DNA of 64,000 nucleotides, taken from the NCBI GenBank assembly GCA_028386065.3, contig JAKUCV010003160.1, positions 1 to 64,000 of the forward strand. Reading direction: 5' to 3'. A program made the translations under genes and the position numbers. Each line of letters begins with the position of its first letter. The first letter of the stretch is position 1. The DNA comes from Turnera subulata. Lineage: Eukaryota > Streptophyta > Magnoliopsida > Malpighiales > Passifloraceae. Below, one piece after another: positions 3,657 through 57,477 of the stretch. A model generated the notes under the pieces. That model was not told the DNA's origin, searched no databases, and was given only the letters and a program-made list of their open reading frames with translations.

Positions 3657-5160
3657 GATAATTCTACAATGATCAATTCACACAAAATCAGAGTCATGTA
3701 TACATAAAATCATTTAACAAGGAATTTTATTAAATGATACTCCCACTATATAAATCAAGACGATAATAAGTGGGCCAAGATCCATATTTCACTACAAGAT
3801 AAGTTAGCTTTGGCTAATCGCTTATATCATAGTTATTTAGGTAAACAACTCTTTGTCAATTACATCTCATGTAACTCTTGGATAGTTGAGTGAACAACTC
3901 TTGTTCTTGTCTATCTCATAGACTTATCTCAACTCTTTGCCTCTATGTCCCTAATCCTATTGAGATGACTTAGTTAAGTTCAACCCATGACAAACAATTT
4001 GGATATTACAATTATCTCATCGCATCTTGCTAGGATAAATATTGGCACTTTGCTTTGACAAACCTACCAGGTGTTCATCTAAGCATAAATGAGTGCTCAT
4101 CAATGGAAGGCAACACATGAGGAACTTAATATTTATATCAACAAGTTATATCCATACATAACATGCATGTAATTAACAAATTATATATCGCATATACAAT
4201 AACTATGCATCATATGCAATATAAGCCGCTGCGCAGAGGTAGCACGGAGGTTCCAAAAATTATATGAACATCGATGTTTACCAACCAACATCGATGTATT
4301 ACTTGAGCCAACATAGATGTTTCAGCCCAAACATCGTTGTTTGAAGTTGGCAAATCCTCAGCACATCGATGTTTAGACTTAAACATCGATGTTTTGACCC
4401 TTCGGCTGACAATCATCAAAATAGAACATCGATGTTTACCAGACAGCATCGATGTTTTGGAGGTTCGACCAAAAGCCAAGCTTCTAGTGAACATCGATGT
4501 TGGAGATTCGGCCAAAACCAATCTTCATGAAAACATCGATGTTTGTCTAACAACATCAATGTTTAGAAGATTCGGCCAAGGCCAATCTTCATCACAACAT
4601 CGATGTTGGTCTGACAACATTGATGTTTAGAAGATTCGGCCAAGGCCAATCTTCATGAAAACATCGATGTTTGTCTGACAATATCGATGTTTAGAAGATT
4701 CGGCCAAGGCCAATCTTCATCACAACATCGATGTTGGTCTGACAATATCGATGTTTAGAAGATTCGGCCAAGGCCAATCTTCATTAGAACATCGATGTTT
4801 ACACTGACAACATCAATGTTTTGGCCTTGCTGTCCTAGAACGACAATCGTTCCATATAAAAACCGACAATCGATTTATCCTTGTCGAACTCATTCGACTT
4901 TCTGCCGAAAACACACCTTGATTGATATCATATACCAATCAAGTACTTGCTATCAAATACCTTTGATAGATCCAACTTTAGCATATCACATATATCAAAC
5001 TCATAATGATCTAGTTTAAGCATACTATAAACATAAGCATAATAAACTATGATAAAGTTATGTTGCTTATACAATCATGATCAAGCCACATCACATATAG
5101 CATATCATACATATAAACAAATTTTTTGGTTTAGTGTTTCACAAGGGGCTCCGCTACCAC
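3657..5160 (-). other. Untranslated leader of copia A, with PBS-like site
   Basis: This 1.5-kb non-coding leader lies between LTR and gag. Next to the LTR (5146-5159, minus strand) is a PBS-like TGGTAGCGGAGCC, close to but not equal to the initiator-tRNA-Met complement I remember (TGGTATCAGAGCC). Two short hairpins shared with copies B and F follow: GTCGAA/TTCGAC near 4884-4899 and TTGATTG/CAATCAA near 4918-4945. The palindrome array is listed separately. No ORF here looks coding. Confidence 0.7.
4267..4820. repeat. Array of 19 AACATCGATGTT-type palindromes in the copia A leader
   Basis: Nineteen copies of the 12-bp palindrome were counted, nine of them perfect. They come in pairs whose starts are 20 (once 21) bp apart. 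From about 4490 the pairs sit in a 64-bp tandem unit whose other half is itself an inverted repeat (GAAGATT, GGCC, AA, GGCC, AATCTTC). Several variants are single transitions in the central CpG (AACATCAATGTT, AACATTGATGTT), as expected from deamination of methylated cytosine. Confidence 0.95.
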
Positions 5161-6546: not shown

Positions 6547-7376
6547 TATAAGTCCTTAATATACTCAAATCTAATCAACTTAGAACTAAGAGAAGAGATT
6601 AGAGCATACCTCCTAGATAATGCATCAGCAACTACATTATCCTTACCTTGCTTATAACGCACCATATAAGGGAATGTCTCAATGAATTCCAGCTTCTTAG
6701 CATGCCTCTTATTTAGCTTACCTTGTCCTTTCATATACTTCAAGCTTTCATGATCAGTGTGGACCACGAATTCCTTAGGCCACAAGTAATGCTGCCATGT
6801 TTGTAGTGCTCTCACCAATGCGTAATGCTCCTTGTCATAGGTAGAGTAATTGAGTTGAGCTCCCTTCAGCTTCTCACTAAAGTAAGCAATAGGTTTCTTT
6901 TCCTACAAAAGAACAGCATCTATGCCTATACTAGAGGCATCACACTCAATCTCAAAAGTAGAATCAAAGTTAGGCAATTTAAGAATTGGAGCAGAACAAA
7001 ATTTCTCTTTCAAAGTCTCAAAAGCCTGCGCCTGTGCATCATCCCACTTAAATCCAACTTCCTTTTTGACAATATCATTCAATGGTCCAGCAATGGTACT
7101 AAAATCTTTCATAAACCTTCTATAAAAACTAGCAAGTCCATAAAAAGATCTTACCTCAGAGATAGTAATAGGCGTGGGCCACTTCTTAATGGCTTTGACC
7201 TTCTCTTGTTCAACTTCTATCACATTAGCACTAACAACATAACCAAAAAAGACAACACGATCCATGCAGATTGTGCACTTCTTAAGCTTAGCAAATAACT
7301 TTTCAGCCCTAAGTGCATCCAACACTAGTTTAAGAAGTTCCATATGCTCATCAACATTCTTGCTATAGGTCAGAAC
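6546..7376 (-). pseudogene. Ty3/gypsy pol, second half (RT thumb and RNase H), split by copia B
   Basis: On the minus strand this begins at LTYSKNVDEH, the residues that follow the RT active site, and runs through the RT connection (FGYVVS, the SFYGLASFYRRF helix) and RNase H ([43 protein letters not shown]). One in-frame TAG at about 6903-6905 replaces what is normally Gln in LLQEKK-type sequences. The first half of RT lies at 15830-16005, beyond copia B, and the reading frames join across the insertion. The RNase H sequence style is that of chromovirus-like gypsy elements. The left end is cut at the ambiguous base 6546; integrase is not present. Confidence 0.9.
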
Positions 7377-9078
7377 TGTAAGTAACCGGGTATGCAAAAA
7401 GAGACAATATGCGCAGCAGAAAACTCGGAACTAATGGAGGATCCATGTGAAAAGGGGTAAACCGAATAACAAAAATTCGTACCTGGTTAGGTTGAGATCT
7501 TTCACTCAACTGATGATCCGAATCAGCAAGAACCGGACAGAAATCCGACTCCTCTACGGTATCCACACGAACCGTCGATGACCGCTAGCAATCGTCACAC
7601 GATTACTAACCCGCGCACTCCCGAACCGCAGTGCTAGCTGCAAAATTTCCGAGAGCTAGAGACTAGTGTTTGATGTGTTTCTTTCTCAAGAATGAAGTGT
7701 GTATTCTTTTGTGTGTTAATCTCATTAACCACTTTCTTTCACATACATGTCATATATGTATCAACGTTAGTTTATATACAGAAATGGTCAACCTAATCAC
7801 ACATACATTTTATCATGCATGATTGTGTTTTCCATTATCTATACTTTAGTCACAATCATCAACATGATCATGTCTCCACTAACTCAATCATATATATCAA
7901 CATATATATCTTCAACGTTAGTTCATATAGAAATAGCCAACCTGATCACACATATATATATTATCATATGTCAATATGTATGATTGAGTTTCCAATATCT
8001 ATACTTTAGTCACAATCATCTACATGATCATGTTTCCTCTAACTACACTTTAATCATACATATCACTATATATATAATAATGACACATCAATTTCGTCCT
8101 TTTTGAGTAATAATTCAGGTTCAATAATTCTGGTAACTAGTGAACCAAACCAACCCAAACGACCCGGTCCAACCATGGTCCAACCACACCCGGTCGAACC
8201 ATGGTCCAACCATCTGCTCGAATCAACGGTTCTATGTGTGTGACCCTGTAGGCACTTGTAACGTCCGACAATAATTGTAAAATCTCATTTTACAATTATA
8301 AGCAAAGAGCGGCGTCTAGCAACACATCATTGCTACCCGAACGACAAGATCAGTACTGATTTTATATGCCTCGGAACATGTCATCGTCCTTTCGTCCCAT
8401 TATCAAGATTAAACCGAGACATGGAAAACGTCAATCTCGTATATGTTTAATCTTAGTTTCTTGATTCCCGAGTTAATTGTGTAAAACGGATCCTAATGAT
8501 ATCACCATATCATATAATCCGAGCATGGCCATGCATTTAACAGTTCAACTCTATCAAGAAGCCCATCTGATAATATACCCGTTATATGGGTCGGACAAAT
8601 CCCATCTTGATCAATCAAAACCCACTACACATTTATCATATATACCCAATGATTACCCTTAAGTCCACCCAGTTACGGACGACTAGAAATAATATCAAAG
8701 TATACGACTCATATGTTGGGAACCTTGATGATCTCAGGTCTAAGGACAATACATATAAAAAAACCACTAATGACTATCATATAACGTTCCATATAGGGTT
8801 CTTATGTGGGTCAGTCCAGTCCACAAGTTCTCTAACTTGTACCCGTATGTAGAATTCATATCTCATATAATTCTCAACATACGCTAGTCTTAATTTATTA
8901 TTACAACCCATCCACAATAATAATCGACTAGGGATATTTTAAGAATACAAAGTATTCTAAGGTTATAAATATGTGCAAGCGATTATCTCATAATCATATT
9001 TATTGGAATAACCGTAATGTATATACATGACTACAAACAACCATCCATTGATTGGCTTTTGGGCATATTACACTAACA
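7377..9078 (-). mobile_element. Copia B 3' LTR
   Basis: On the minus strand it starts TGTTAGTGTAATATGCCC (9078 leftwards) and ends in TTACTTACA at 7377. It aligns with 14132-15829 over its full length. The short ORFs inside (for example 7815-8009) occur identically placed in the other LTR and are not genes. Confidence 0.95.
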
Positions 9079-9090
9079 ATCTCCCACTTG
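9079..9090 (-). promoter_or_regulatory. Polypurine tract of copia B
   Basis: On the minus strand CAAGTGGGAGAT directly precedes the 3' LTR. This purine run is where plus-strand DNA synthesis is primed during reverse transcription. It overlaps nothing else and begins just after the pol stop codon. Confidence 0.85.
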
Positions 9091-9092
9091 CA

Positions 9093-12000
9093 CTAAAGCC
9101 AATCAAGCATGTATCTAATACCAATGGATGCGCAATGACCTTCATGCTTCTGCTGTGTGAGCGGCTTAGTCAAAGGATCTGCTACATTGTTCTCAGAAGG
9201 AACTCTGCACAGCCTGACGTCGCCTCTATCTATGATCTCTCTAATAAGATGATAGCGTCGGAGTATATGTTTGGATCTCTGGTGGTATCTACGTTCTTGA
9301 GCCCATGCGATTGTTCCATTGTTGTCACAATAGAGCTCAATCGGACTCTCAATACTAGGAACCACACCAAGTTCAGTTACAAACTTCTTAATCCAAACAG
9401 CCTCTCTCGCCGCATCTGAGGCAGCAATGTACTCAGCCTCAGTTGTAGAATCTGCAACTGTCTCTTGCTTAGAACTCTTCCAGCATACAGCACCACCTCC
9501 AAGACAAAACACATAACCTGATTGCGATCTAAAGTCATCCCTGCCTGTTTGGAAGCTAGCATCTGTGTAACCCTTTACAACAAGCTCATCAACGCTTCTA
9601 TACACAAGGAATGCATCCTTAGTCCTTCTCATGTACTTAAGGATGTTTTTAACCGTTGTCCAGTGACTTTCACCGGGATCAGATTGATATCTGCTTGTGA
9701 CACTCAAAGCATAAGCGACATCCGGTCGGGTACATAGCATGGCATACATGATAGATCCTATTGCAGAAGCATAAGGAATCTTACTCATTCGTTCTCTCTC
9801 CTTAGATGAACTAGGACACTGATTCCTTGAGAGAGATACGCCATGTGACATGGGCAAGAATCCTTTCTTGGAATCTTGCATGCTAAACCTCTTTAGTACT
9901 TTGTCAATATATGTACTCTGACTTAGACCGAGAAGCCTTTTGGATCTATCTCTATAGATCTTTATACCCAACACGTAGGCAGCTTCTCCTAAGTCCTTCA
10001 TTGAGAAATTCTTTCCTAACCAAGTCTTTACTGACTGTAGCGTCGGAATATCATTCCCAATGAGTAGAATGTCGTCAACATACAACAACAAGAAAACGAT
10101 AATGCTCCCAATAACCTTCCTGTAAACACATGGTTCATCTTCGTTCTTAATGAAACCAAACTCTTTGATCACTTCATTAAAACGAAGATTCCAACTCCTA
10201 GAAGCTTGCTTCAACCCATAAATGGATCTTTGCAATTTGCATACCATATTAGCATTCTTTGGATCGACAAAACCTTCAGGTTGTGTGATGTACACATCCT
10301 CTAAAAGATTTCCATTTAGGAAAGCGGTTTTGACATCCATCTGCCATATCTCATAATCATGGTATGCAGCTATTGCCAGCAGAATCCGGATGGATTTAAC
10401 CATGGCAACTGGTGAGAAAGTTTCATCATAGTCTATACCATGAACTTGTTTGAAACCTTTCGCGACCAATCGCCCTTTAAAGGTAATCACATTACCATCC
10501 ATGTCGGTCTTTTTCTTAAAGACCCATTTGCACCCTATGGGTTTTACCCCTTCAGGTGGATCAACCAAGGTCCATACCTTGTTTTCATACATGGATTCCA
10601 TTTCCGAATTCATGGCTTCTAGCCACTTCTTGGAGTCCGGACCCGTAATGGCCTGCTGATAGGAAGTGGGCTCATCCTCATCTATGAGCATCACATCTCC
10701 AGTATGAGTCATAAGAAATCCATATCTCTCAGGCTCATACCGAATCCTATCCGACCTACGCGGTCCATGTGTTATAGGTACAGGATTCTCATCCACAACA
10801 TCTTGTGGTTCCTGTCCTTGTTCCATCTCAGCCTCTAGATCTCGAACTTCTACGAGTTCTATTTTTCTCCCACTGATTCCTCTAGAAATAAATTGTTTTT
10901 CTAGAAAAATAGCAGTCCGAGCAACAAACACTTTGTGGTCGGTGGGGTTATAGAAGTAATACCCTTTTGTTTCCTTAGGGTATCCTACAAAGATGCACTT
11001 CTCGGATTTAGGGCCGAGTTTATCTGATGCTTCACGTCTCACGTAAGCCTCACAACCCCAAATCCTCATAAAAGACAAATTGGGACGCTTCCCAGTCCAT
11101 ATCTCATATGGTGTCTTTTCGACCGATTTAGATGGAACACAGTTAAGTGTAAATGCAGCACTCAATAATGCATGTCCCCAAAATGAAGAAGGAAGGTCAG
11201 CTTGACTCATCATAGAACGAACCATATCTAATAAGGTTCTATTCCTCCATTCAGATACACCATTCCATTGAGGCGTACCTGGTGGAGTAAGTTGTGATAC
11301 TATACCACATTCCTTTAGATGATCAAGAAATTCTCGGTCTAAGTATTCACCTCCTCGATCAGATCGAAGCATTTTAATACTCTTACCAAGTTGATTCTGT
11401 ACTTCATTCTTGAATTCTTTGAACTTTTCAAAGGATTCTGACTTGTGTCTCATAAGATACACATAGCCATATCTACTGTAATCATCAGTAAATGTAATGA
11501 AGTATTGAAAACCACCTCTAGCCTGTGTAGACATAGGTCCGCATACATCAGAATGTATAAGACCTAATAAGTCTGAAGCTCTTTCACCTTTACCAGTAAA
11601 GGGAGCCTTCGTCATTTTGCCCAACAAACATGACTCACATGTCTCATATGATTCAAAATCAAATGAGTCTAATAGTCCATCTTTATGGAGTTTAGCAATA
11701 CGAGTCTCGTTTATATGGCCCAAACGACAATGCCAAAGGTAGGTTTCATTAGAATCGTTCATTCTAACCTTCTTCGTATTAACGTTATAGATTGGCGTTT
11801 CTAGGTTTAGAACATACAAACCATTGCTCAAATATGCACCACCATAATAAATATCATTGAAATAAATAGAACAACATTTGCTCTTTATTACAAATGAAAA
11901 GCCTTTCTTGTCCAGACAAGAAACAGAAATCAAATTCCTGCTTATAGTAGGTACATAATAGCAATCATCAAGTTCCAAAACCAAACCACTCGGTAAAGAT

Positions 12001-13043
12001 AGATAATAAGTCCCTACGGCTAATGCAGCAACCCTTGCTCCATTTCCGACGCGTAGGTCTATCTCACCCTTTGCCAATCTCCTACTCTTTCTTAGTTCCT
12101 GCACATTTACACAAATGTGAGAACCACATCCGGTATCTAATACCCATGATGCAGAGATAGAGATATTAGCTTCTATAACGAAAATACCTGAAGTGGAAGT
12201 CTCACTTCCCTTCCTTTTCTTCACCTCTTCAAGGTAAATAGGGCAGTTGCGCTTCCAATGGCCCGGTTTATTGCAATGGAAACAATGTCCTTCCTTTGCA
12301 ATACCACCTTTGGGTTTCAGCACATGATCACAAGAACATGCACATACACCAAACTTTTTAGCACATTTCTTCTTCTTGTTAAACTTTGCTTTACCCTTTC
12401 CTTTGCTCTTTCCAATCATCAAAATGTTGGATTTGTTTGCCCTCATTTGTTGCTCAGTTGTTCCCAACATGTTAAGCAACTTAGACAACGATTTGTCAAG
12501 ATGATTCATATTGAAGTTCATGACAAATTGGCTGTAATTGTCCGGCAACGATTGCAGAACTAGATCAACCGCCAACTCCTTTTGCAAAGGAAAACCAAGA
12601 CCCTCAAGGCTCTCAATGTATTCAATCATTTTAAGCACATGAGGTCTCACGGGTGATGACTCTGCCATCCTGCATTGGAACAATGCCTTAGAGGTCTCAT
12701 ACCTCTCATGCCTTGCTTGCTCATCAGAGAGCATCTTTAGGTGTTCGATCATATCGAACGCCCCCATGTTCTCATGTTGCTTCTGAAGCCCAGATTCCAT
12801 GGCTATTAGCATAAGACATGCGACATCCAATGCATCGTCAAGATGCTTCTTGTAAGCATCCCTTTCTGCTCTAGGAGCATTAGGCGCCGGTTCAATCGGA
12901 ATAGGCCCTTCAAGGACATACAACTTCTTTTCTTGTTTGAGGACAATCCTCAAATTGCGATACCACTTTAGGAAATTATTCCCATTCAGCTTTTCCTTCT
13001 CAAGGACCGATCGCAATGATAGTGTACTTGTGTTTTGTGCCAT
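9093..13043 (-). CDS. Ty1/copia Gag-Pol polyprotein, intact (1316 codons)
   Basis: One uninterrupted ORF carries all copia domains in the canonical order. Gag (about residues 1-250) ends in the zinc knuckle CFHCNKPGHWKRNC (about 254-267). The aspartic protease has LDTGCGSHIC (catalytic Asp near 303). Next come the GAG-pre-integrase motif WHCRLGH, then integrase with HSDVCG (near 495), SDRGGEY (near 560) and NGVSEW (near 594). RT has YVDDIL near 988, and RNase H has TEAEY near 1200. The product makes virus-like particles, reverse transcribes the element RNA and integrates the cDNA. The start chosen is the ATG of MAQNTSTLSLRS, conserved in copies A and F. No stop or frameshift was seen, so this copy is coding-competent on paper. 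Finer lineage assignment (Tork/TNT1-like) is from memory only. Confidence 0.95.
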   Translation of the reverse strand: MAQNTSTLSLRSVLEKEKLNGNNFLKWYRNLRIVLKQEKKLYVLEGPIPIEPAPNAPRAERDAYKKHLDDALDVACLMLIAMESGLQKQHENMGAFDMIEHLKMLSDEQARHERYETSKALFQCRMAESSPVRPHVLKMIEYIESLEGLGFPLQKELAVDLVLQSLPDNYSQFVMNFNMNHLDKSLSKLLNMLGTTEQQMRANKSNILMIGKSKGKGKAKFNKKKKCAKKFGVCACSCDHVLKPKGGIAKEGHCFHCNKPGHWKRNCPIYLEEVKKRKGSETSTSGIFVIEANISISASWVLDTGCGSHICVNVQELRKSRRLAKGEIDLRVGNGARVAALAVGTYYLSLPSGLVLELDDCYYVPTISRNLISVSCLDKKGFSFVIKSKCCSIYFNDIYYGGAYLSNGLYVLNLETPIYNVNTKKVRMNDSNETYLWHCRLGHINETRIAKLHKDGLLDSFDFESYETCESCLLGKMTKAPFTGKGERASDLLGLIHSDVCGPMSTQARGGFQYFITFTDDYSRYGYVYLMRHKSESFEKFKEFKNEVQNQLGKSIKMLRSDRGGEYLDREFLDHLKECGIVSQLTPPGTPQWNGVSEWRNRTLLDMVRSMMSQADLPSSFWGHALLSAAFTLNCVPSKSVEKTPYEIWTGKRPNLSFMRIWGCEAYVRREASDKLGPKSEKCIFVGYPKETKGYYFYNPTDHKVFVARTAIFLEKQFISRGISGRKIELVEVRDLEAEMEQGQEPQDVVDENPVPITHGPRRSDRIRYEPERYGFLMTHTGDVMLIDEDEPTSYQQAITGPDSKKWLEAMNSEMESMYENKVWTLVDPPEGVKPIGCKWVFKKKTDMDGNVITFKGRLVAKGFKQVHGIDYDETFSPVAMVKSIRILLAIAAYHDYEIWQMDVKTAFLNGNLLEDVYITQPEGFVDPKNANMVCKLQRSIYGLKQASRSWNLRFNEVIKEFGFIKNEDEPCVYRKVIGSIIVFLLLYVDDILLIGNDIPTLQSVKTWLGKNFSMKDLGEAAYVLGIKIYRDRSKRLLGLSQSTYIDKVLKRFSMQDSKKGFLPMSHGVSLSRNQCPSSSKERERMSKIPYASAIGSIMYAMLCTRPDVAYALSVTSRYQSDPGESHWTTVKNILKYMRRTKDAFLVYRSVDELVVKGYTDASFQTGRDDFRSQSGYVFCLGGGAVCWKSSKQETVADSTTEAEYIAASDAAREAVWIKKFVTELGVVPSIESPIELYCDNNGTIAWAQERRYHQRSKHILRRYHLIREIIDRGDVRLCRVPSENNVADPLTKPLTQQKHEGHCASIGIRYMLDWL

Positions 13044-14131
13044 GGTAGCTCTACAACAAAGATCAACTCATAGAAATAAGAGTCATGTATACATAAATCA
13101 TTTAACAAGGAATTCTATTAAATGATGCTCCTACTATGAAAATAAAATAATCATGAGCAGGCCAAGATCCATATTTCACTACAATATAAGTCAGCTTTGG
13201 TTGATCGCCTACATCATAGCTATTTAGGTAGACAACTCTTGTCAATTACATCTCATGTAACTCTTGGATAGCTGAGCGAACAACACTTGTTCTTGTCTAT
13301 CTCATAGACATTACCCAACTCCTTGCCTCTAAGTCCTTAATCCTATTAAGATGACCTAGTTAAGTCCAAACCTACAATAAGCAGTTCAGATATTACAATT
13401 ATCCAGTCGCACCTTGCAAGGATAAACATTGGCACCTTGCTTTGGCAAAAACTACCAAGTGTTGATCTAAGCAATGATGAGTGCATATCATGGAAGGCAA
13501 CTAAGAACTTAATATTTACATCAAAATATGTTCATACATCACATGCATATAATAAAAAATTCATACATTGATGTTTTGTAAATTTGGAAACCAAAAATAC
13601 ATGTGAACATCGATTTCTAACTTGAACATCGATGTTTTGAGAATCTGATTCTCCCAACTACTTGGCAGCACTAAATATTTCGGCCATATCTAGAGCTGTA
13701 GAGCTCGGTTTGGTGCAATCTTGGTGTCCTTGGAAAGCAAAGAAGTATTTCTACAACTTTTCTATTCAGGCCAGACACTAATTCGGCCTCCTTCTGCCCC
13801 GAATCCGCTATTGAAGTCACTAGATTCCAGAACATCGTTGTTGTAGGTATCATATACCTTTCAAGCACCCTTGTCGAACTCATTCGACTTTATACCAAAA
13901 CACACTTTGATTGATATCACAAACAATCAAGTGCCTGATATCAAAACACTTTTGACAAAAATAACATCAACATATATCACATATACAAAAGAATTCAGCA
14001 CAACACATACAAAATGAATTCAGCATATCACATACACCAAATTGAACTTAACATATCACATACGTTAAGATGAACATATCACATATGCACAACAATTCAG
14101 TTTAGAGCTTCACAAGAGGCCCCGCTACCAC
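13044..14131 (-). other. Untranslated leader of copia B, palindrome array collapsed
   Basis: The 1.1-kb leader is homologous to those of copies A and F. A PBS-like TGGTAGCGGGGCC lies beside the LTR (about 14118-14130). The GTCGAA/TTCGAC hairpin (about 13872-13887) and the TTGATTG/CAATCAA pair (about 13909-13930) are present. Only one gag-proximal palindrome pair (about 13607-13637) and one degenerate copy (about 13832) remain of the array seen in A and F. Confidence 0.75.
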
Positions 14132-15829
14132 TATAAGTAACCGGGTATGCAAAAAGAGACAATATGCGCAGCGGAAAACCCGGAACTAATGGAGGAACCA
14201 TGTGAAACGGGGTAAACCGAATAACAAAAATTCGTACCTGGTTAGGTTGAGATCTTTCACTCAACTGATGATCGAATCAGCAAGAACCGGACAGAAATCC
14301 GACTCCTCTACGGTATCCACACGAACCGTCGATGACCGCTAGCAATCGTCACACAATTACTAACCCGAGCACTCCCGAACCGCAGTGCTAGCTGCAGAAT
14401 TTTCGAGAGCTAGAGACTAGTGTTTGATGTGTTTCTTTCTCAAGAATGAAGTGTGTATTCTTTTGCGTGTTAATCTCATTAACCACTTTCTTTCACATAC
14501 ATATCATATATGTATCAACGTTAGTTTATATATAGAAATGGTCAACCTAATCACACATATATTTTATCATGCATGATTGTGTTTTCCATTATCTATACTT
14601 TAGTCACAATCATCAACATGATCATGTCTCCACTAACTCAATCATATATATCAACATATATATCTTCAACGTTAGTTCATATACAAATAGCCAACCTGAT
14701 CACACATATATATATTATCATATGTCAATATGTATGATTGAGTTTCCATTATCTGTACTTTAGTCACAATCATCTACATGATCATGTTTCCACTAACTAC
14801 ACTTTAATCATACATATCACTATACATATAATAATGACACATCAATTTCGTCCTTTTTGAGTAATAATTCAGGTTCAATAATTCTGGTAACTAGTGAACC
14901 AAACCAACCCAAACGACCTGGTCCAACCATGGTCCAACCACACCCGGTCGAACCATGGTCCAACCATCTGCTCGAATCAACGGTTCTATGTGTGTGACCC
15001 TGTAGGCACTTGTAACGTCCGGCAATAATTGTAAAATCTCATTTTACAATTATAAGCAAAGAGCGGCGTCTAGCAACACATCATTGCTACCCGAACGACA
15101 AGATCAGTACTGATTCTATATGCCTCGGAACATGTCATCGTCCTTTCGTCCCATTATCAAGATTAAACCGAGACATGGAAAACGTCAATCTCGTATATGT
15201 TTAATCTTAGTTTCTTGATCCCCGAGTTAATTGTGTAAAACGGATCCTAATGATATCACCATATCATATAATCCTAGCATGGCCATGCATTTAACAGTTC
15301 AACTCTATCAAGAAGCCCATATGATAATATACCCGTTATATGGGTCGGACGAATCCCTTCTTGATCAATCAAAACCCACTCACATTTATCATATACCCAA
15401 TGATTACCCTCAAGTCCACCCAGTTACGGATGACTAGAAATAATATCAAAGTATACGACTCATATGTTGGGAACCTTGATGATCTTAGGTCTAAGGACAA
15501 TACATATAAAAGAACCACTAATGACTATCATATAACGTTCCATATAGGGTTCTTATGTGGGTCAGTCCAGTCCACAAGTTCTCTAACTTGTACCCGTATG
15601 TAGAATTCATATCTCATATGATTCTCAACATACGCTAGTCTTAATTTATTATTACAACCCATCCACAATAATAATCGACTAGGGATATTTTAAGAATACA
15701 AAGTATTCTAGGGTTATAAATATGTGCAAGCGATTATCTCATAATCATATTTATTGGAATAACCTTAATGTATATACATGACTACAAACAACCATCCATT
15801 GATTGGCTTTTGGGCATATTACACTAACA
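14132..15829 (-). mobile_element. Copia B 5' LTR
   Basis: It matches 7377-9078 with about 2% differences. The right end on the plus strand is ATTACACTAACA, that is TGTTAGTGTAAT on the element strand. The left terminal dinucleotide on the plus strand is TA rather than TG, a single substitution. It would contain the element promoter; I could not place a convincing TATA box. Confidence 0.95.
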
Positions 15830-16005
15830 AGAATATCATCAAAGTAGACAACAACAAACTTTCCAATAAAATGACATAAGACATGATTCATTAATTGCAT
15901 AAAAGTACTAGGTGCATTAGTTAATCCAAAAGGCATTACCAACCTCTCATACAACCCATACTTAGTCTTAAACGCAGTCTTCCATTCATCTCCAATTTTC
16001 ATTGA
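15830..16005 (-). pseudogene. Ty3/gypsy RT, first half, upstream of the copia B insertion
   Basis: Minus-strand sequence encodes [18 protein letters not shown], then [17 protein letters not shown] and VVYFDDIL, the RT palm with the active-site FDD. The frame continues into 6546-7376 once the copia element and one target duplication are disregarded. Upstream gypsy sequence (protease, gag, LTR) is absent: at about 16003-16010 it gives way to Sirevirus-like LTR sequence. Only a fragment survives. Confidence 0.92.
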
Positions 16006-16009
16006 TAGA

Positions 16010-16379
16010 GGTAATCACTAAAGCTTTTGGTTGAATTGATTTCTGATCTTGGTGACTCGATTGAATCGGAGGTGCTATCCAGCTTTGTTCTGGTAGTGTT
16101 GCCGTATCAATTGTGGTCTATGAGCATGAAAGAGACTTAAGCTTAATAAAATAATACTCTTAACACACATACCAATCCCACTAACCTCAAACCTTATAAA
16201 ATCTGATTTCATTATTTAATTCAAGGGTTTGGGTGGTGGATTAAAATATTCATAAGCCTAGTTTGTCATTGATCAAAATCAATTAATCATATGTTAGGTT
16301 ATTAAGTTAAATCACTAATTAGCACTAATTGGATAATTAATTAATCACTAATGCACATGTTAATTACCTTAACCCAACA
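16010..16379 (-). mobile_element. Sirevirus-like LTR start (truncated)
   Basis: On the minus strand TGTTGGGTTAAGG follows immediately after a strong polypurine tract, so this is the beginning of a 3' LTR. About 370 bp remain before gypsy RT sequence takes over near 16005. The distal terminus and target duplication are therefore not visible, and the left boundary is approximate. Confidence 0.6.
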
Positions 16380-16640
16380 TTCTCCCCCTTTTTTATGATA
16401 ACAAACATATATGAAAAATACAAGCATGTGAGGGTTTAAAACAATTTAAGGTTTAAGCTCCCCCTCAACCTATGACGCTCCCCCTAAATCTATGCTCCCC
16501 TACTTAAAAATTTTTCCAAATTAAGCACGAATCAATAGAGGAATAAAGATAGGTTAGAGTAACAATCGATATTAGTAACTGTAAGCATCCACAATCAACC
16601 ATCATTGTGTGTTTTTCACACACCACTTTTCTCCCCCTAT
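16380..16640 (-). promoter_or_regulatory. Multiple polypurine tracts of a Sirevirus-like element
   Basis: On the minus strand the run AAAAAAGGGGGAGA (16381-16394) abuts the LTR. Further GGGGGAG-type copies lie at about 16457-16465, 16476-16484, 16493-16499 and 16630-16637. Repeated polypurine tracts ahead of the 3' LTR are a signature described for Sireviruses (established knowledge). Confidence 0.65.
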
Positions 16641-19476: not shown

Positions 19477-20840
19477 TGTTAGAAACAATAGACTTAAGCT
19501 AGAGGGGGGGTGAATAGCTTATGATCGAAAATTAAAAACTTTGCAGGAAATGAAGTGCGGAATTGAAAAATAGAAGGACACAAGAGATTTTTATACTGGT
19601 TCACACACAACTAATTTGTGGCTAATCCAGTCCTTCAAGATACACTTGAAGAGTTCACTATCTACCGTTAAGCTTCCGGGTGCTTAACAAACCGTTTACA
19701 GCCTAGGAATTCTAATCACAAGAATCCTACACACTTGCTTGAAGATACCTCACTTCAAGACTTCTCTCAAGGAAAGAAAATCACTCTTCCTATGAGTAGC
19801 TACAAGGGAACAAACCTCCCTTTCAGTGTATGAACAACACTATGAAGATTACTCAAACAAAAGCTCTCTCAAGAGTAGGTATGAGTTACAATTAAGCACT
19901 AATAAGGCAACTCTCAATAATCTCAAAGGAATTGGCTCTTAAACTTGATTGAATGTTTTGCAATGAATGATGAATGAAATAGAGAGTTGATTGGTTTATA
20001 AACCCAGCTAAAAATGCTCAATATATAGCTCTGAAAAGTCATGGAGCCGTTTGAAATCCACCCAAGAAAAACACCTTTAAGCAAAGCTTAGTGGGTGCTG
20101 AAAAGTTGTCTGGACCATGCCTTAAACATCGATGTTTTAAAGGAGAACATCGATGTTTTGCCCATAAAATTTGAATTTTGGGCTAACGGTAACTAAAACA
20201 TCGATGTTCTGAATCCAAACATCGATGTTATTTTGGTTCGGCAAAATTCTTTTGAAAAAGGTTTATGCAAGAACATCGATGTTGGAAAATGAAACATCGA
20301 TGTTTTGTGAAACATCGATGTTTGATTAGCCAACATCGATGTTTTTTGGCTTCGGCAAAATTCTGTTTCTGAGACAAGTTTTCATGAACATCGATGTTGT
20401 ATTTGAAACATCGATGTTTTGACCAACGGTCACAAGAACATCGATGTTTTGTAATCCAACATCGATGTTTTAGAGCTACTGCCAAAATCTTGAAAAACTT
20501 GAAAAACAGAACATCGATGTTTGCTTTCAGAACATCGATGTTTTGGACTGAAAACACATCTTTATGTTTGAAATCATGCTAATGAATTGTATGATTGAAA
20601 TGTGTTTTGTTTGAGCCAATGCCTAAGAGAAGTTGAGTGTTTTACCTTGTACAAATAGGTCCTAACTTCTCTTGCTCTTCTTTGCACTTCAACTCTTGAT
20701 CATATCTTCACTTGAGTACTTGATCACTTTGGTTGAGTGCTTGTTTGCTTGATTTATTTTTGCTTCATCTTGGTTATGATCTTGGTTTGTCATTTATCAA
20801 AACCTGTAATAAGTGAACCATGAAGACATAGGTTCTAACA
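19477..20840 (+). mobile_element. Solo LTR-like block (1364 bp), probably Sirevirus-type
   Basis: The ends are TGTTAGAAAC and GGTTCTAACA, an 8-bp inverted terminal match with TG...CA. The early phrase AGAGGGGGGGTGAATAG is typical, from memory, of Sirevirus LTRs and gives the orientation. There are no coding ORFs. Flanks are ATCCT on the left and GTAAC on the right, so no target duplication. The left flank belongs to element D and the right flank to the LTR of element C, so the block joins two different elements. A non-autonomous element is an alternative. Confidence 0.6.
20125..20542. repeat. Array of 14 perfect AACATCGATGTT palindromes inside the solo LTR
   Basis: All 14 copies are exact. 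They form seven pairs with starts 21 bp apart (20 in one case). Spacer phrases such as TTCGGCAAAATTC resemble the TTCGGCCAA and TTCGGCAACC spacers of the copia A and F arrays. The 109-codon antisense ORF over the array is a by-product of the repeat (KHRC and NIDV in alternation). Confidence 0.96.
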
Positions 20841-21358
20841 GTAACTCGGTCTCTTCTCCTTTGATTTATCTCTGCAGCTGCGATTTTGTCTCTGATTGTA
20901 CGTTGATACTTACATGTTTTCCTGAGTGTTGATTCTAATCTAAGAACTACGCGAGCTTTGAACCCGGTTGCTGGGGTACGTAGGATGTCTCTAGTGGTGG
21001 AGATGCAAGCCAAATTGTTTCTTTTGTTTTTTTCCCTTGTCTCTTCAATTTCGATTTTTTTATATATTATTGTTATTGTTTTGTTGCTGGAAATCTTGGT
21101 TTACACACATACACACATCCTCCAATGCACAAGTATTCGCTTAAATTGCATATTATTTCGCCAAAGCATGGATGGGGTGCCTCATACCTTCCTATCCATG
21201 ACGAACCCCTGAGTCCAACACCTTTGGTTCGCTATTCTGGTTGCTTTGCGGGTATAAGGAGTCATTCTTTGGTTTTTCCTAAGTTTTTCCACGGTAATAA
21301 AACTTGGGTGGTGACTCCATCGATTGTCATGGAGGTGAGAAAATTCCGGGTTCTCACA
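20841..21358 (+). mobile_element. Element C 5' LTR, 3' part only
   Basis: Homologous to 31796-32310 from the phrase GTAACTCGGTCTCTT to the terminal TTCTCACA. The first roughly 870 bp present in the 3' LTR, including promoter and TATA box, are missing and replaced by the solo LTR block. This copy therefore lacks its own promoter. Confidence 0.88.
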
Positions 21359-21360
21359 GC

Positions 21361-21378
21361 TGGCGACTCCACTGGGGA
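21361..21378 (+). promoter_or_regulatory. Primer binding site of element C
   Basis: TGGCGACTCCACTGGGGA lies 2 bp after the 5' LTR. Tat/Ogre elements are known for PBS sequences of this kind (attributed to tRNA-Arg, from memory). A degenerate equivalent follows the D2 LTR at about 33631. Confidence 0.8.
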
Positions 21379-22082
21379 TTCGTTGGTTTAAGAAATAATG
21401 TGCAATTTTCGCTTGAGTTTTGTGCTTTGTTACTTGTTACTTGCATGCTTGCATTATAATTGTGTGTTAACCTCTACCTTAAGGGGGCACAAGGAGTCCT
21501 TGCCCATACATACCATCATTCGTGGTGATATGGCATGCGATTTGTCCGTTACCCGCCGCGCGCGATGATTGGGAACCTTGGCATTCGGCTTCACGCGGCA
21601 TCCTTGTGTCACATGTGAGTAGGATGAACCTCCCATAGCAGCGGTTCTTTGGCCCCCAACCAGCTGCATACCCTTGCATGTAGTTGAACGAAACCCTAGG
21701 GGTACTTTCCTTATGTGGAAACATGTTGTATGCTTATGCTTGCTTTTCGTGGATCCAAATTAATTGTGCACTCATATTTCCCTTATCAAAACAAAATTCT
21801 AGTCGAGTCTCTTTTTCAAAATTCTTCTTCAAATTTTTTTTTCTTCTAGGGAGCCGATTTATATTTTTCTTAAAATTATTTTTTTTAAAAAAAATCAAAA
21901 CAAAAATCAGAAATTCAGAAACAAAAACCTGCTTTTTTGTGCTTAAAACCTCATGTTTTAAAATAAAAACTTCGGCTCCAAATCTTTTCTTTTTTCCAAA
22001 TAAAGCATCCCTTCTTTGTGCATTTGAGTGGTGTTGCAGTCAATGAGTAGTCTCTTATACGGGCGTTTACCCTTAGGACACC
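21379..22082 (+). other. Untranslated leader of element C
   Basis: About 700 bp between PBS and gag. It contains the phrase CCCCCAACCAGCTGCATACCC (about 21654-21673), also found in the leaders of D2 (about 33927) and E (about 39710, inverted), and an A/T-rich stretch at 21780-22000. No coding ORF is supported. Confidence 0.6.
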
Positions 22083-23345
22083 ATGAGTGACGACATTATC
22101 CAAGTGAATGATCCAACCGTTGTGGGTGAGTTGCTGGAGAAGTTGAAGGGCGTTAGCATGGCTTAATTTCTCGAGGCACTGAATGTAGCAAAGGGTGATG
22201 ATGGTACCGTTGCCCAATCTTCAAAGAAGAACACTAGCAAAGCCGATGGTAAGCGGCCAATCGTGATTGATGAAGACATCGACGCCCCGGCACCCCGTCT
22301 AGAGGATAAGAATGACAAGATTGAAGGAATTCTCAAGGATCTCAAGCGGAAGGAGGACAACTATAACCTTGATCAATTAGCTCTCTTCCCCGAGGCTCGG
22401 TTTCCGTACAAATTCAAGATGCTTGACATTGAAAAATTTGATGGAACGGGTTGTTCACATCCACACTTGAAGTTCTATGTCCGCACTCTTTATCCTATCG
22501 GAAATGGTCCCCAGTTGATGGCATAACTATTCCAACGCTCTTTAGGAGGAGCGGCTTTATCTTGGTTCATGTCATTGGACGACGACCGTGTTTCCAAATG
22601 GGAGGACATTTGCAAGGAGTTCGTTGAGCACTACAAGTATAACACTACCGTTGATGTCACCAAGAGAGATCTCGAAACTACCAAGCAACAAGCTCAAGAG
22701 ACCTTTTCTGAGTTCATCACTTGGTGGCGCAACAAGGCATCCCGAATGGTGAAGCGTCCATCCGAAGAAGATCAAGTCCAAATGGTAATCAAGAATTTGC
22801 AACCAATCTACTATGATCGCATGGTGAGCAACTATTATGCTAACTTCAAAGGCCCTAATTGGCACGGGAACTCAACTGGAAGATGCCATTGCATCCGGTA
22901 AGATCAAAACTCCTCAAGACAACTCTTTTCAAAGAAATAATTTTGGGAGAAGCAACAACAAGAGATCGGCGGATGTGAATAACGTGGCGGTGAATGCGCC
23001 AATTCAACTCGGTGAGACAAAAAGGCAATACACTCGATTGTCTACGCCACTTAGCACTGTTCTAAAGATATGCATGGCCCAAAATGCCATCACACCGTTA
23101 GCACCGCCAACCGATCCAAGTCCCAATCTTGATCGAAGTAAGCATTGCGAGTTCCACCAATTCTATGGGCACAAGATCGATGATTGCATTCGACTACGCC
23201 ATGTGGTGCAAGACTTGATTGACCATGGGAAGCTCATTCCTCCAACAAAGCCGAACACCAAGATGAATCCTTTGCCTCCACACAATACCATTAGTGCCAT
23301 CTTTGACAAAGGACTCTTGGACTTATCCATCCTATGGAGGAATTA
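22083..23345 (+). pseudogene. Tat element C Gag, decayed
   Basis: Starting at the ATG of MSDDIIQVND, the frame has stops at about 22164 and 22524, then a +1 shift near 22860. It encodes a retrotransposon Gag domain: FPEARFPYKFKMLDIEKFDG, GGAALSWFMSL, WEDICKEF, then the segment ETTKQQAQETFSEFITWWR. The C-terminal part has the histidine/cysteine motif CEFHQFYGHKIDDC (about 23148-23189) in place of an ordinary zinc knuckle, as in other Tat-group Gags. Gag forms the particle that packages element RNA. With several breaks it cannot be made in full. The protease frame begins downstream by another shift near 23340. Confidence 0.85.
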
Positions 23346-26300
23346 GAGTGCATGATGCTCATTGACTTGAATGACTACGTGAACCTCAAAGAAGAGAATG
23401 TGCATGCAATCACTAGGTCCGGGCGTGTTGCCAAGCCAATTGACCTTGAAGCTGACATTCCCATTATGCCACCCAAAGTCCCTAATGAACCCGAGCAGGA
23501 TCCACTCTCGAAGCAATTGAAGAAGACTCAAGCAAACATCACCATATGGGGATTGCTCATGACTTCACGACCGCATTGGGAGAAAATGCTACATCTTTTG
23601 GGAAACACACAAGTACCCATTGACACTACACCGAATGATTTGGGCGAAATCATGGCAATCACAAGCAACAAAAATGCTATCACTTTTTCCGATAAAGACT
23701 TAATATCAAGCAAAGGAAAGCACACGGATGCACTCTACATCACAGTGCATGTCAAAAGAAATCAAGTCCCTATGGTCATAATCAATAATGGATCGGTCCT
23801 CAATGTGTGTCCCTTAAAAGTTGCAATTGTCGTTGGGTTAGGATTGGATGACTTCACTCCTTCAAGACAAACCGTCCGCGCTTATGACAATGCATAGAGA
23901 GAAGTCCTTGGTACCATTACCCTTAAAGTCAATTTCGGCCCGGTAGCCTTCCCTATCGAGTTTCACTTCCTTGATATCGCATCGAGCTTCAATCTGCTAT
24001 TTGGAAGACCTTGGTTGCATCAAGTTAAAGCTGTACCATCTACCTTGCATCAAATGCTCAAATTCCCACACAATGATGGTATTGTCACTACCCGAGGAGG
24101 GGCATTGGACCTACCTACCAAGCAAGTACATGAAGTAGACGAGGATAAAGAGATCTCCCTTTCTGGCTTTGTATTCTAAGAGGTCAACACTCTGACTTGG
24201 GGATTGGAGCATCAAGAGAACTTTCCTCTATACTATGACCCGTTTAGCAACACAAGGATCGTGGGCATCATGAAGAAGATGGACTTCTTACCTTTCATGG
24301 GGCTTGGACGCCACCAACAAGGTATTCTTGAGCCTCCACTGACTCCAACCATCATCCCACCCTTTGGCTTGGGATACAACCCTACACCCGAGGACAGGAA
24401 GAGAATGGAAGCTAGAAATAGGGAACGAGCCCGCACCAAGAAGGAGAACCAAACTTTGGACTTCGAAATGGATCCCTACTTAAAGACTTTGAATGGACAA
24501 TTTGTGAAGGAAGGTGATGATTTACCCTGTTGTGGCTTTCCCGAACCATGGTACTCACCCACCATTAGGTCTCTACTACTCGGTTTTGAGATATTCTTTG
24601 ATTGTAGGCTTGATGAGGTCATACATACTCAAGATGGCGAATGCGAAGATTTTGGCCTCAAAGGTTTATTTGGAAATATGCACTTAGAGCATGGAGTCAC
24701 GCATGAGAGGAGCATGATTACCCTTATCCTAGGAGCATTGAAGCAATGGGAATGGAGCAAGCCATCTAGTGGAGTAGACGAGTTCGAGTCTGAGTCTGAG
24801 TCCACATTTTCTTTCGATAATAAAGAGGAGCAACCATGTCGCCCTCCCGATTTTTAATTCAAGTCATCTAACACTCTCAAGGATAATGATGTTTTGTGTT
24901 TTTCAAAGAATAATATGAAGCTTACATTCCCTCACTTTGGTGTTTGTGATGATAATGTTGTTTGCATGGATGATGTGCATAATGATGATGAACTAAATAA
25001 ATTCCATGAAACACCCACTCTATCTGAATCTAAAGAGGGTGAATCAATTGAGAATAACTCGGGAACTGAAGCTGAACCTAAAATCACCAAAATGAGTGCT
25101 ACATTACCCCATAGTATTAAGGAAGAACTCCCCGCTTTGATCCAAGAATATGTGGACGTATTTGCATAGTCCTCCAAAGATATGACCGGTATCGATCCAG
25201 AAATCGCCCAACACCATATCCCGACTTTTTTGAGTGCCAAACCTATCAAGTAAAAGGCGCGCCGCCTCCAACCACAATGGGCACTCAAAGTAAAAGAGGA
25301 AGTGGAAAAGCAACTCCAGGCCGGATTCCTGGAAGTGATAGACTACCCTGAATGGTTAGCCAATATCGTCTCTGTGCCAAAGAAGGATGGTAAGGCCCGC
25401 ATGTGTGTCGATTATCGAGATTTGAACAAAGCATGTCCTAAGGATGAGTTTCCATTACAACATATCGATCTACTAGTTGACGCTACTGCTGGTCACGCAC
25501 TCTTATCATTCATGGATGAATTCTCTGGGTACAACCAAGTACTAATGGCATCCGTGGATAAGCATAAGACGGCTTTCCGCACGGAATGGGGTACTTTCTG
25601 CTACAAAGTAATGCCCTTTGGACACATTAATGCTGGCGCCACTTACGAACGAATGGCCACTACTTTTACTCACGACATGATGCATGACATAGTGGAAGTA
25701 TACGTCGATGACATGATCGTCAAGTCACAAACCAATGAGTGTCACGTGCCCAATCTACGACGATTCTTTGAGAGATGTAGGAAATTTGGCATGAGGATTA
25801 ACCCGCAAAAATGTGTCTTCGGTGTAAAAGCAAGAAAGCTTCTCGGTTTCAGGGTCAGTGAAAGAGGAATTGAGGTCGACCCTAGCAAGATCAAGGCAAT
25901 TCAAGAGATGCCAATTCCAAGGACCGAGAAGGAGATTAGAAGTTTCCTCGACCGTGTACAATACATTAGTAGATTTATCGCACAATTATCCAGTATTTGC
26001 ATGCCTATTCATCGACTCCAGAAGAAAGGGGTATCAACCGAAGGGAATGTTGACTGCCAACATGCCTTCGATCGAATAAATGAGTACGTATCCACTCCAC
26101 CAATCTTACAACCTCCTAGATCGGGTCAACCACTTCTTCTACATCTCACTGTGACTGACAATGCCATGGGTGCAATGCTCGCGCAATATTTCCCTGACTC
26201 TTGCATCGAGAATGCTTTCTACTACTTGAGCAAGAAGTTGACTGATTATGAAGCCAAGTACAACATGATTGAGAAGACATCCGTTGCACTGACATGGGTT

Positions 26301-56063: not shown

Positions 56064-57477
56064 GTGGTAGTGGAGCCTCTTGTGAAGCTCTAAACCGATT
56101 TGTTGTGCATATGTGATATGTTCGTCTTAATGTATGTGATATGTTAAGTTCAATTTGGTATATGTGATATGCTGAATTCATTTGTATATGTGATATTTGT
56201 TGAAATTATTTTTGTCAAAAGTGTTTTGATGTCAGGCACTTGATTGGTATGTGATATCAATCAAAGTGTGTTTTGGTAGAAAGTCGAATGAGTTCGACAA
56301 GGGTGCTTGAAAGGTATATGATACCTACAACATCAATGTTTAAGCTTTGAACATCGATGTTCTCTTAGGTCGATTGTCGGTCGAGAGGTCAAAACATCGA
56401 TGTTTAAGTATTAACATCGATGTTCTATGCATTTGCCAACCTCAAACATCGATGTTTGATCGTCAACATCGATGTTCTGTGGGCTCGGCAACCTCCAACA
56501 TCGATGTTTGAACGTAAACATCCATGTTCTGAGGCTCGACAACCTCAAACATCGATGTTTGATTATCAACATCGATGTTCTGAGGGTTCGGCAACCTCCG
56601 AAATCGATGTTTGATTGTCAACATCGATGTTCTATGGATTCGCAAACTTCAAACATCGATGTTTAAGGGTTAAACATCGATGTTTTGGAATCCAGTGAAT
56701 TCTACAGCAAATTCGGGGTAGAAGGAGGCCGAATTGGTGTCTGGCCTGAACAGCAAAGTTGTAGAACTACTTCTTAGCTTTCTAGGGACACTAAGATTAC
56801 ACCAAACCGAGCTCTACAGATCTAGATATGGCCAAAATACAGAGTGTTGCCAAGTAGTTGGGAGAATCATATTCTCAAAACATCGATGTTCAAGTTAGAC
56901 ATCGGTGTTCACTTGTAATTTTGGTTTCCAAATTTACAAACATCAATATACATTCATCAAGAACATGCATGTAATGTATTGGAATAGTATGTTGATGAAA
57001 ATATTAAGTTCTTCTTGTGTTGCCTTCCATGATAAGAACTCATCAAGGTTAAGATCAACAATTGGTAGTTTTTGCCAAAGCAAGGTGCCAATGTTTATCC
57101 TAGCAAGGTGCGACTGGATAACTGTAATATCTGAATTGCTTATTGTGGGTTTGGACTTAACTAGGTCATCTTAATAGGATTAAGGACTTAGAGGCAAGGA
57201 GTTGAGTATTGTCTATGAGATAGACAAGAACAAGTGTTGTTTACTCAACTATCAAAGAGTTACATGAGATGTAATTGACAAGAGTTGTCTACCTAAATAG
57301 CTATGAGTAAGCGATCAGCCAAAGCTGACTTATCTAGTAGTGAAATGTGGATCTTGGCCTACTTATATGATTGTCTTGATTTATATAGTAGGAGTATCAT
57401 TTAATAGAATTCCTTGTTAAATGATTTTGTATGCATGACTCTTATTTGTGTGAGTAGATCATTGTTGTAGAATTTCT
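56064..57477 (+). other. Leader of copia F, with PBS-like site and hairpins
   Basis: PBS-like TGGTAGTGGAGCC starts at 56065. The TTGATTG/CAATCAA-type hairpin (about 56240-56264) and GTCGAA/TTCGAC hairpin (about 56283-56298) are conserved with A and B. The palindrome array is listed separately. A last palindrome pair stands alone at 56879-56909, the equivalent of the one kept in copy B. Confidence 0.75.
56329..56684. repeat. Array of 14 AACATCGATGTT-type palindromes in the copia F leader
   Basis: Fourteen copies, 11 perfect, in seven pairs with starts 20-21 bp apart. Pair-to-pair spacing is about 52-53 bp in the centre of the array, with spacers of the TTCGGCAACCTC type. Two more copies (one perfect) lie at 56879-56909. 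Confidence 0.95.

Follow-up and report, generated by a model that had tools for sequence, protein, structure and literature searches.

The 12-bp palindrome AACATCGATGTT, of which 14 exact copies lie within a solo LTR of Turnera subulata, is probably a Sirevirus RM box that serves several Ty1/copia families in common as a cis-regulatory module and would offer a face-aligned operator to a putative dimeric host protein; a probability of slightly less than 0.6 is assigned to this reading as a whole. The array itself is an RM array of the known Sirevirus class, in its rarer ATCGAT-core form, and what is new is the spread of the box over at least three copia families and the helical phase of its arrays, neither of which was found in the accessible text of the literature searched. 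The analysis started from a stretch of 64,000 nucleotides (contig JAKUCV010003160.1, positions 1 to 64,000; hereafter the window) and was extended to the genome. The box is abundant, is shared between families, has a constrained spacing both within and between pairs and, in the arrays sampled, keeps helical phase. The array and the LTR that carries it comprise the following features:

20125..20542, minus strand: 14 exact AACATCGATGTT RM boxes in 7 pairs, starting at base 299 of the LTR, 5' of the TATA box
19477..20840, minus strand: Sirevirus solo LTR, TGTTAGAA...TTCTAACA, 1364 bp; the same LTR bounds complete elements elsewhere in the genome
19995..20027, minus strand: two TATA-like boxes, gctatatattgagc and ggtttataaacc, 98 and 125 bp past the array
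19504..19510, minus strand: poly-C run, 27 bp short of the LTR end, of an integrase-type signal, CTATTCACCCCCCCTCTAG, judged against the account given in PMC2829016
20785..20802, minus strand: right arm TTTTGATAAATGACAAAC of the PPT/LTR inverted repeat, whose left arm TTTGTCATTATCAAAAAGGGGG lies 5' of the 3' LTRs of the family

The boxes start at 20125, 20146, 20197, 20218, 20272, 20293, 20311, 20332, 20387, 20407, 20437, 20458, 20510 and 20531 and, in the minus sense of the LTR, where the array spans base 299 to 716, the successive steps are 21, 52, 21, 30, 20, 55, 21, 18, 21, 54, 21, 51 and 21 bp; the recount agrees with the first-pass annotation, which had reported seven pairs of exact copies, six spaced by 21 bp and one by 20 bp. 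With up to 2 mismatches the box is matched 54 times in the window against 4.5 expected, and it accounts for 36 of the 72 perfect 12-bp palindromes found there. The array is rich in CpG (observed/expected 1.44, as against 0.19 in the remainder of the LTR) and, as had been claimed, the central CpG is kept in all 14 boxes, compared with 15/19, 14/16 and 3/4 in the leaders of the window's copia elements A, F and B, respectively. Rfam yielded no match within the window.

The host of the 20125-20542 array is a Sirevirus LTR that fits the anatomy given in the accessible text of PMC2829016; its earlier description as a Sirevirus-like solo LTR is borne out by this anatomy and by the complete copies, the strand being corrected to minus. 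A genome search gave 4908 candidates, of which 40 were scored, and recovered the window LTR at 96-100% identity. The 30 best loci consist of 16 5' LTRs, which display the ATTGG junction and are followed by ATTGGTAGCGG, 10 3' LTRs placed after AGGGGGAA-AT, 3 solo LTRs (of the 29 loci other than the window's) having a 5-bp duplication, and the window copy, a solo LTR whose flanks (ATCCT/GTAAC) form no matching 5-bp target duplication. At all ten 3'-LTR loci, which had been recognised by their last AGGGGGAA octamer, 4-5 such octamers occur within ~300 bp before the LTR, the terminal one being 10 bp away with an AT|TG junction; several PPT octamers ahead of the 3' LTR are a Sirevirus trait, as are the inverted repeat around the PPT/3' LTR junction (arms read by eye) and the poly-C integrase signal, described at ~21 bp from the LTR end and here reading CACCCCCCCTCTAG with its C run at 27 bp. 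The octamer ends in A, not G, and the PBS reads TAGCGGAGC, which shares 7 of 9 bases with the TATCAGAGC described after CA/ATTGG. In one complete copy, with LTR starts 6.77 kb apart, a stop-to-stop frame of 594 aa comes after the 5' LTR, matching Retrotran_gag_2 and, weakly, zf-CCHC, and a later internal piece holds copia integrase and RVT_2 domains. The proposal that this LTR might be a rearranged copia A/B/F leader is ruled out, since complete elements carry the entire LTR as their terminal repeat. Two neighbouring features were also observed: at 16377-16640 (minus strand) four AGGGGGAG octamers and AAAAAAGGGGGAG-AA-TGTTGGG resemble a linker/3' LTR junction of a second Sirevirus remnant that lacks AACATCGATGTT, and at 20841-28086 the solo LTR is adjoined by a gypsy-type element that has RVT_1/RNase H frames and, near 21360, a PBS-like CTGGCGACTCCACTGGGG.

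According to the accessible text of PMC2829016 (Bousios et al. 2010), Sirevirus RM boxes are palindromic and CpG-rich, and an element has 8 or more of them, up to 32; their arrays begin 200-400 bp from the LTR start and precede the TATA box, which follows the CpG island by 37 bp on average. The array described here corresponds to these boxes in its palindromic unit, copy number (14), position within the LTR (first box at base 299), location before the TATA box (98 bp past the last box), CpG content and the junction features of its host. On the other hand, its core is ATCGAT, whereas the same text gives a CGG-CCG core for all RMs listed but that of tobacco Tnd-1, and the RM, there called Sirevirus-specific and absent from classic Ty1/copia elements, occurs here also in the leader of a classic element and in a third family. 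Close to it in form is the Tnd-1 RM, ACAATCGATTGT, present in 8 copies that are 100% identical (PMC2829016): like it, the box studied here is a perfect 12-bp palindrome with an ATCGAT core, and the PPT has a terminal A instead of G (AGGGGGAA here), as reported for Tnd-1 and ToRTL1 (PMC2829016). It differs from the Tnd-1 RM in its outer bases, in numbering 14 boxes instead of 8 and in being shared; no sharing of the Tnd-1 box with other families was found in the accessible text. The maize Sirevirus palindrome CACCGGAC-GTCCGGTG is a small-RNA hotspot and also the commonest motif of structured Helitron regions (PMC5311732, PMC10760457). The likeness lies in a palindrome-rich cis region of Sirevirus LTRs, and the Helitron case provides a precedent for sharing between types of transposable elements; the sequence is different, however, and the small-RNA mapping was measured in maize. 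The function of the RM box is left open in the portion of PMC2829016 available, and both regulatory sites and small-RNA templates have been proposed for Sirevirus boxes (PMC2829016, PMC5311732, PMC10760457); helical phasing was not found in the RM description of PMC2829016. As to the sequence itself, literature searches returned the exact 12-mer AACATCGATGTT only in works unrelated by title, did not find ACATCGATGT together with a retrotransposon and, for CATCGATG as a plant palindromic binding site, gave no title on a plant factor. The promoter of tobacco Tnt1 is a case in which repeated boxes in tandem act as cis-elements controlling a copia promoter; these boxes are not known to have the motif or the array geometry of AACATCGATGTT.

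The window also contains the box in three further elements, copia A, B and F, whose relevant features are:

4267..4820, minus strand: leader array of copia A with 19 boxes, 9 of them exact, 64-bp units and hairpin-forming linkers
56329..56909, plus strand: leader array of copia F with 14 boxes and, at 56879, a tail pair
13564..13842, minus strand: copia B leader, array cut to one fused box (13831) plus three tail boxes
7377..15829, minus strand: copia B at full length, with 97.8% identity between its LTRs, near-TSD ATTCT/GTTCT, a 14-bp linker and PPT AGTGGGAG
9093..13043, minus strand: copia B gag-pol ORF, 1316 aa, uninterrupted

These three elements are members of one family (aligned LTR pieces ~75-87% identical) which, by the features tested, is a classic Ty1/copia family and not a Sirevirus: copia B has a 14-bp linker and the PPT AGTGGGAG, the junction in A and F reads CA|GTGG, and the LTR stretches tested in A, B and F are devoid of C runs of 5 or more. 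The copia B protein is 32% identical, over 641 residues, to that of the Sirevirus found here. With up to 2 mismatches, copia A has 19 boxes (9 exact), F has 16 (12 exact) and B has 4 (1 exact). The occurrence of AACATCGATGTT and of the pair spacing in the copia A and F leaders, downstream of the PBS, holds as first annotated; two accompanying statements need qualification, in that the PBS contexts differ less than claimed (GTGGTAGCGGAGCC in copia A, ATTGGTAGCGGAGCC in the complete Sirevirus copies) and that the spacers common to LTR and leaders, said to contain TTCGGC, do so in different orientations, reading GCCGAA in the LTR and in A and TTCGGC in F, in element sense.

Comparison of copia B (13831-13842) with F (56329-56684) reveals that 13 boxes are missing from the former, and judging from the sequences the first and last box seem to have fused, in which case the array contracted by recombination between boxes. 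Since copia B has an intact ORF, LTRs 97.8% identical and an array that is almost gone, the array is either dispensable or was lost after insertion. Copia B sits within a gypsy reverse transcriptase, at the FDDIL codons as judged by eye, and is flanked by the imperfect duplication ATTCT/GTTCT (7372-7376 / 15830-15834). In the 64-bp units of copia A (4532-4820) the 5' box of the pair carries a transition in 5/5 units, the 3' box being intact in 5/5. A self-priming PBS, a feature of the TAR lineage according to the accessible text of PMC6317226, was considered and rejected for copia A, B and F, where no match of 7 bases or more was found. The elements of the window are of plant kinds; among the matches listed, the named relatives of its copia protein are likewise from plants, and no relatives of copia B were confirmed in viral contigs. 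Elsewhere in the window, positions 792-1871 (minus strand) hold a 359-aa ORF having no Pfam match at E 0.001.

Within the 518,689,335 bp (7125 contigs) of the genome searched, exact AACATCGATGTT occurs 76,101 times, as against 63 occurrences of the reversed-motif control and ~55 expected from base composition. Box pairs with a gap of 8-9 bp number 29,517 (control 15) and could take in up to 78% of all boxes, while a gap of 14-44 bp separates 31,232 pairs (control 10). In 20 further loci the short steps measure 19 (n=2), 20 (n=34), 21 (n=71) and 22 bp (n=3). In the samples taken, the first refuting condition named by the first-pass annotation, a spacing no more constrained than chance, did not hold. 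The spacers vary in sequence between arrays and are in most cases 8-9 bp long; those within each array of the window are alike beyond shuffles, those of different arrays hardly so.

Six of the 20 further loci are Sirevirus-LTR-like (L007, L045, L068, L071, L072, L074), three are of the copia-leader type (L047, L051, L070), seven belong to a third family, termed X, one (L048) is a probable X by its TATA context, and L046, L069 and L073 are unassigned. The loci of family X are on contigs 8 and 20; five of them (L042, L043, L044, L049 and L050) share TATA, PPT and PBS contexts, and two others (L066, L067) were joined to them by similarity to the other loci of the family. Its array copies are mostly 4.8-4.9 kb apart and are placed in the LTR 3' of the TATA box, ~40 bp short of the LTR end, with ATTGGTAGCGGAG following that end; the integrase and RT pieces are of copia type and share 48-50% identity with the Sirevirus and 33-44% with copia B. 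At least three copia families with unlike proteins carry AACATCGATGTT, and its presence in the copia A/F leaders and in family X, the latter of copia type, departs from the restriction of the RM to Sireviruses. At L046 (C24:68740-69200) the array lies beside a sequence ~70% like the Sirevirus stretch 5' of the 3' LTR and is possibly the linker array of env-bearing Sireviruses. Bacterial or phage contigs with box pairs (L001-L006) look unrelated and were set aside; L002-L006 are 21-bp tandem repeats holding AACATCGATGTT which, by eye, apparently encode 7-residue repeats.

In the arrays sampled, the steps between pairs, and not only those within them, follow the turn of the DNA helix. In the window the period peaks are at 10.42 (Sirevirus LTR), 10.64 (A) and 10.40 bp (F), with R of 0.85, 0.88 and 0.94, respectively. 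When the between-pair steps are made random the corresponding p values are 0.02, 0.0007 and 0.0017, and under the strictest null, in which one random length is drawn per homologous linker class, they become 0.062, 0.021 and 0.054, jointly 0.024, for the window only. Boxes in the further loci were taken with up to 2 mismatches, and one step >100 bp was dropped; of the between-pair steps in these 20 loci, 92/94 depart from n x 10.5 bp by no more than a quarter turn. The first set (11 loci) has 56/57 steps in phase, distributed as 31-33 (5), 42-44 (15), 50-55 (35), 58 and 74 bp, and the second (9 loci) has 36/37. Certain loci represent the two LTRs of a single element, and the linkers have a shared ancestry, so the steps are not independent, and since linkers are partly homologous and within-array spacers alike, the effective sample is below these counts; with one step per linker cluster p is ~0.0004 for the first set (14 clusters) and <1e-5 for the second (22 clusters), and clustering both sets jointly (23 clusters, some of mixed lengths) again gives p<1e-5. 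The second set is not a blind replication, the loci of both sets having been picked from earlier genome searches, one of which had already shown some steps of 5/9 second-set loci. Likewise, 48/50 of the first places returned by the 14-44 gap search are in phase, where 17/31 possible distances would qualify; these places come in contig order and overlap partly with the 20 loci.

All 20 arrays of at least 5 boxes in these loci (L044 contributing two and L066 none) peak at 10.34-10.70 in a scan of 9.5-12 bp; at a fixed 10.5 bp, R is just 0.22-0.57 in four long arrays (L007, L045, L046, L051). The step counts constitute a stronger test than the period scan, since the 20-21 bp pair steps alone draw the peak to ~10-10.5. 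Furthermore, a plain 21-bp register, for instance that of phased 21-nt small RNAs, is hard to reconcile with steps near 31.5 and 52.5 bp. Of the three options put forward by the first-pass annotation, the dimeric DNA-binding site on one helix face is thereby the strongest, owing to a 10.5-bp register found within pairs as well as in between-pair steps of 30-74 bp; the window taken by itself argues for it weakly.

Between the tandem halves of the Sirevirus array, box positions are identical at 48/48 and the rest at 51/61 with 13 additional gap columns (p=0.002), and between the 103-bp halves of F the figures are 45/48 and 42/55 (p=0.027); adjacent 52-bp units of F give p 0.05-0.20 and the units of A p 0.29-1, the boxes of the 64-bp units of copia A being kept no better than the linkers. 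Across the 30 LTR copies 420/420 boxes are exact and variable sites number 0/168 in boxes, 22/250 in linkers and 81/946 in other positions; this is not taken as selection, since singleton changes, too, are absent from the boxes (8.8 sites expected), which is unexpected under selection at the level of the element, and the choice of LTR copies by the search probably contributes to the identity. Of 12 presumed mate LTRs, 7 have no LTR match, 3 are partial and lack the array, and 2 are usable. The latter have 27 exact boxes, the remaining one of 28 being missing from L062 (22 gap columns), and their changed bases, 0/324 in boxes against 31/2381 elsewhere (p=0.044), were not used as evidence of selection.

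Linker sequences bear on the relationship between the arrays. TTCGGC, on either strand, occurs in 2/28 Sirevirus-like, 3/21 leader and 5/19 family X linkers (shuffle means 0.3, 0.3 and 0.2), and TTGGCAG in 4/28, 9/21 and 2/19 (shuffle means 0.1, 0.0 and 0.1), with L071 left out and L048 counted as X; neither motif is found in the 17 linkers of the unassigned loci, nor TTGGCAG in the window's A and F arrays. Having been picked after viewing the linkers, the two motifs are a lead to common origin and not a test of it. The best alignment of linkers between the Sirevirus LTR array and leader A is not above shuffles (p=0.435), nor is the reversed Sirevirus-F comparison that holds GGTTCGGCAA (p=0.175), and both were discarded as homologies; a Sirevirus-F linker alignment weakly above shuffles (p=0.025) is located outside the array, and the high summed Sirevirus-F scores, seen in both orientations (p=0.005 each), probably reflect composition. 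What stands of the proposal that the motif moved between families is accordingly its sharing by at least three of them, together with the recurrent linker motifs.

Other explanations would place the function of the arrays in RNA or in chromatin, or deny them one altogether. In the RNA reading, which we regard as rather unlikely, each pair forms a hairpin of 12-bp stem and 8-9 nt loop, and the arrays act, or are kept, as templates of silencing small RNAs, as proposed for maize, where Sirevirus palindrome regions are small-RNA hotspots in the accessible text of PMC5311732 and PMC10760457. The RNA of the Sirevirus array folds to -172.5 kcal/mol, full shuffles averaging -85.3 kcal/mol, but tandem palindromes of any kind fold, and when the boxes are kept and the rest is shuffled, structures as low as the observed one arise in 0/60 cases for A, 1/60 for the Sirevirus LTR and 19/60 for F, whose linkers thus add no RNA stability. 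Hairpin-forming linkers, clear in A only, were accordingly dropped as a general feature. Changes are seen in 12 of the 23 pairs of the three arrays; none of these 12 is compensated, 2 keep just a wobble, and in 10 one or more base pairs are broken, so that there is no sign of selection for pairing among the 23, and a hairpin needs no 10.5-bp period between pairs. The RNA pairing signal suggested at first thus receives little support from the pairs, and from linker stability a clear one in A, some in the Sirevirus LTR and none in F; RNA roles for the arrays, a small-RNA role among them, are possible.

The same phase data, and the contrast in CpG observed/expected between array (1.44) and remaining LTR (0.19), could also be produced by a feature of rotational nucleosome positioning or of heterochromatin that involves no sequence-specific activator; rotational positioning should, however, require neither an exact 12-bp palindrome nor pairs, and this reading appears improbable. 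Least probable of all, in our estimate, is that the arrays are a neutral by-product, an ancestral array having been copied between elements by template switching and expanded in tandem, with its spacing inherited and not selected. Tandem duplication is indeed evident in the 64-bp units of A and the 52-bp units of F, the copia B array was apparently lost by fusion of its first and last box, TTCGGC and TTGGCAG recur in linkers across families, and within-array spacers are more alike than shuffles; yet linkers that diverge by sequence and indels have lengths that fall mostly into three classes, near 31, 43 and 53 bp, and reducing each linker cluster to one value leaves p at ~0.0004 for the first set and <1e-5 for the second. 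It is the phase between pairs that favors a DNA-level, face-aligned array over RNA hairpins, a 21-nt register and neutral repeats.

With the face-aligned operator as the preferred reading, we infer protein binding, cooperativity and an effect of the array on transcription. Most likely a dimeric host protein would bind each 12-bp box as DNA; the unit would consist of two boxes separated by two turns, and units recurring at ~3, 4 or 5 turns would align the bound dimers on one face of the helix, where they could cooperate. The array may then act as an enhancer, or as a similar control element, of the retrotransposon promoter, and an enhancer-like role would explain its varied placement, namely before the TATA box in the Sirevirus LTR, after it in the family X LTR and in the leader of copia A/F. 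As a more tentative extension, to which we give somewhat less than even odds, one plant DNA-binding protein could be the common regulator of unlike Ty1/copia lineages that gained the same face-aligned operator by exchange or capture.

In physical terms, a 10.5-bp register in and between pairs, present in several families with differing linkers, marks recognition at the DNA level, and with it the question of what the box does becomes testable with one probe. If a common regulator exists, tens of thousands of identical sites would form a network by which unrelated retrotransposons are switched together. Since a box described as Sirevirus-specific is common to other copia elements, regulatory modules may spread between retrotransposon lineages.
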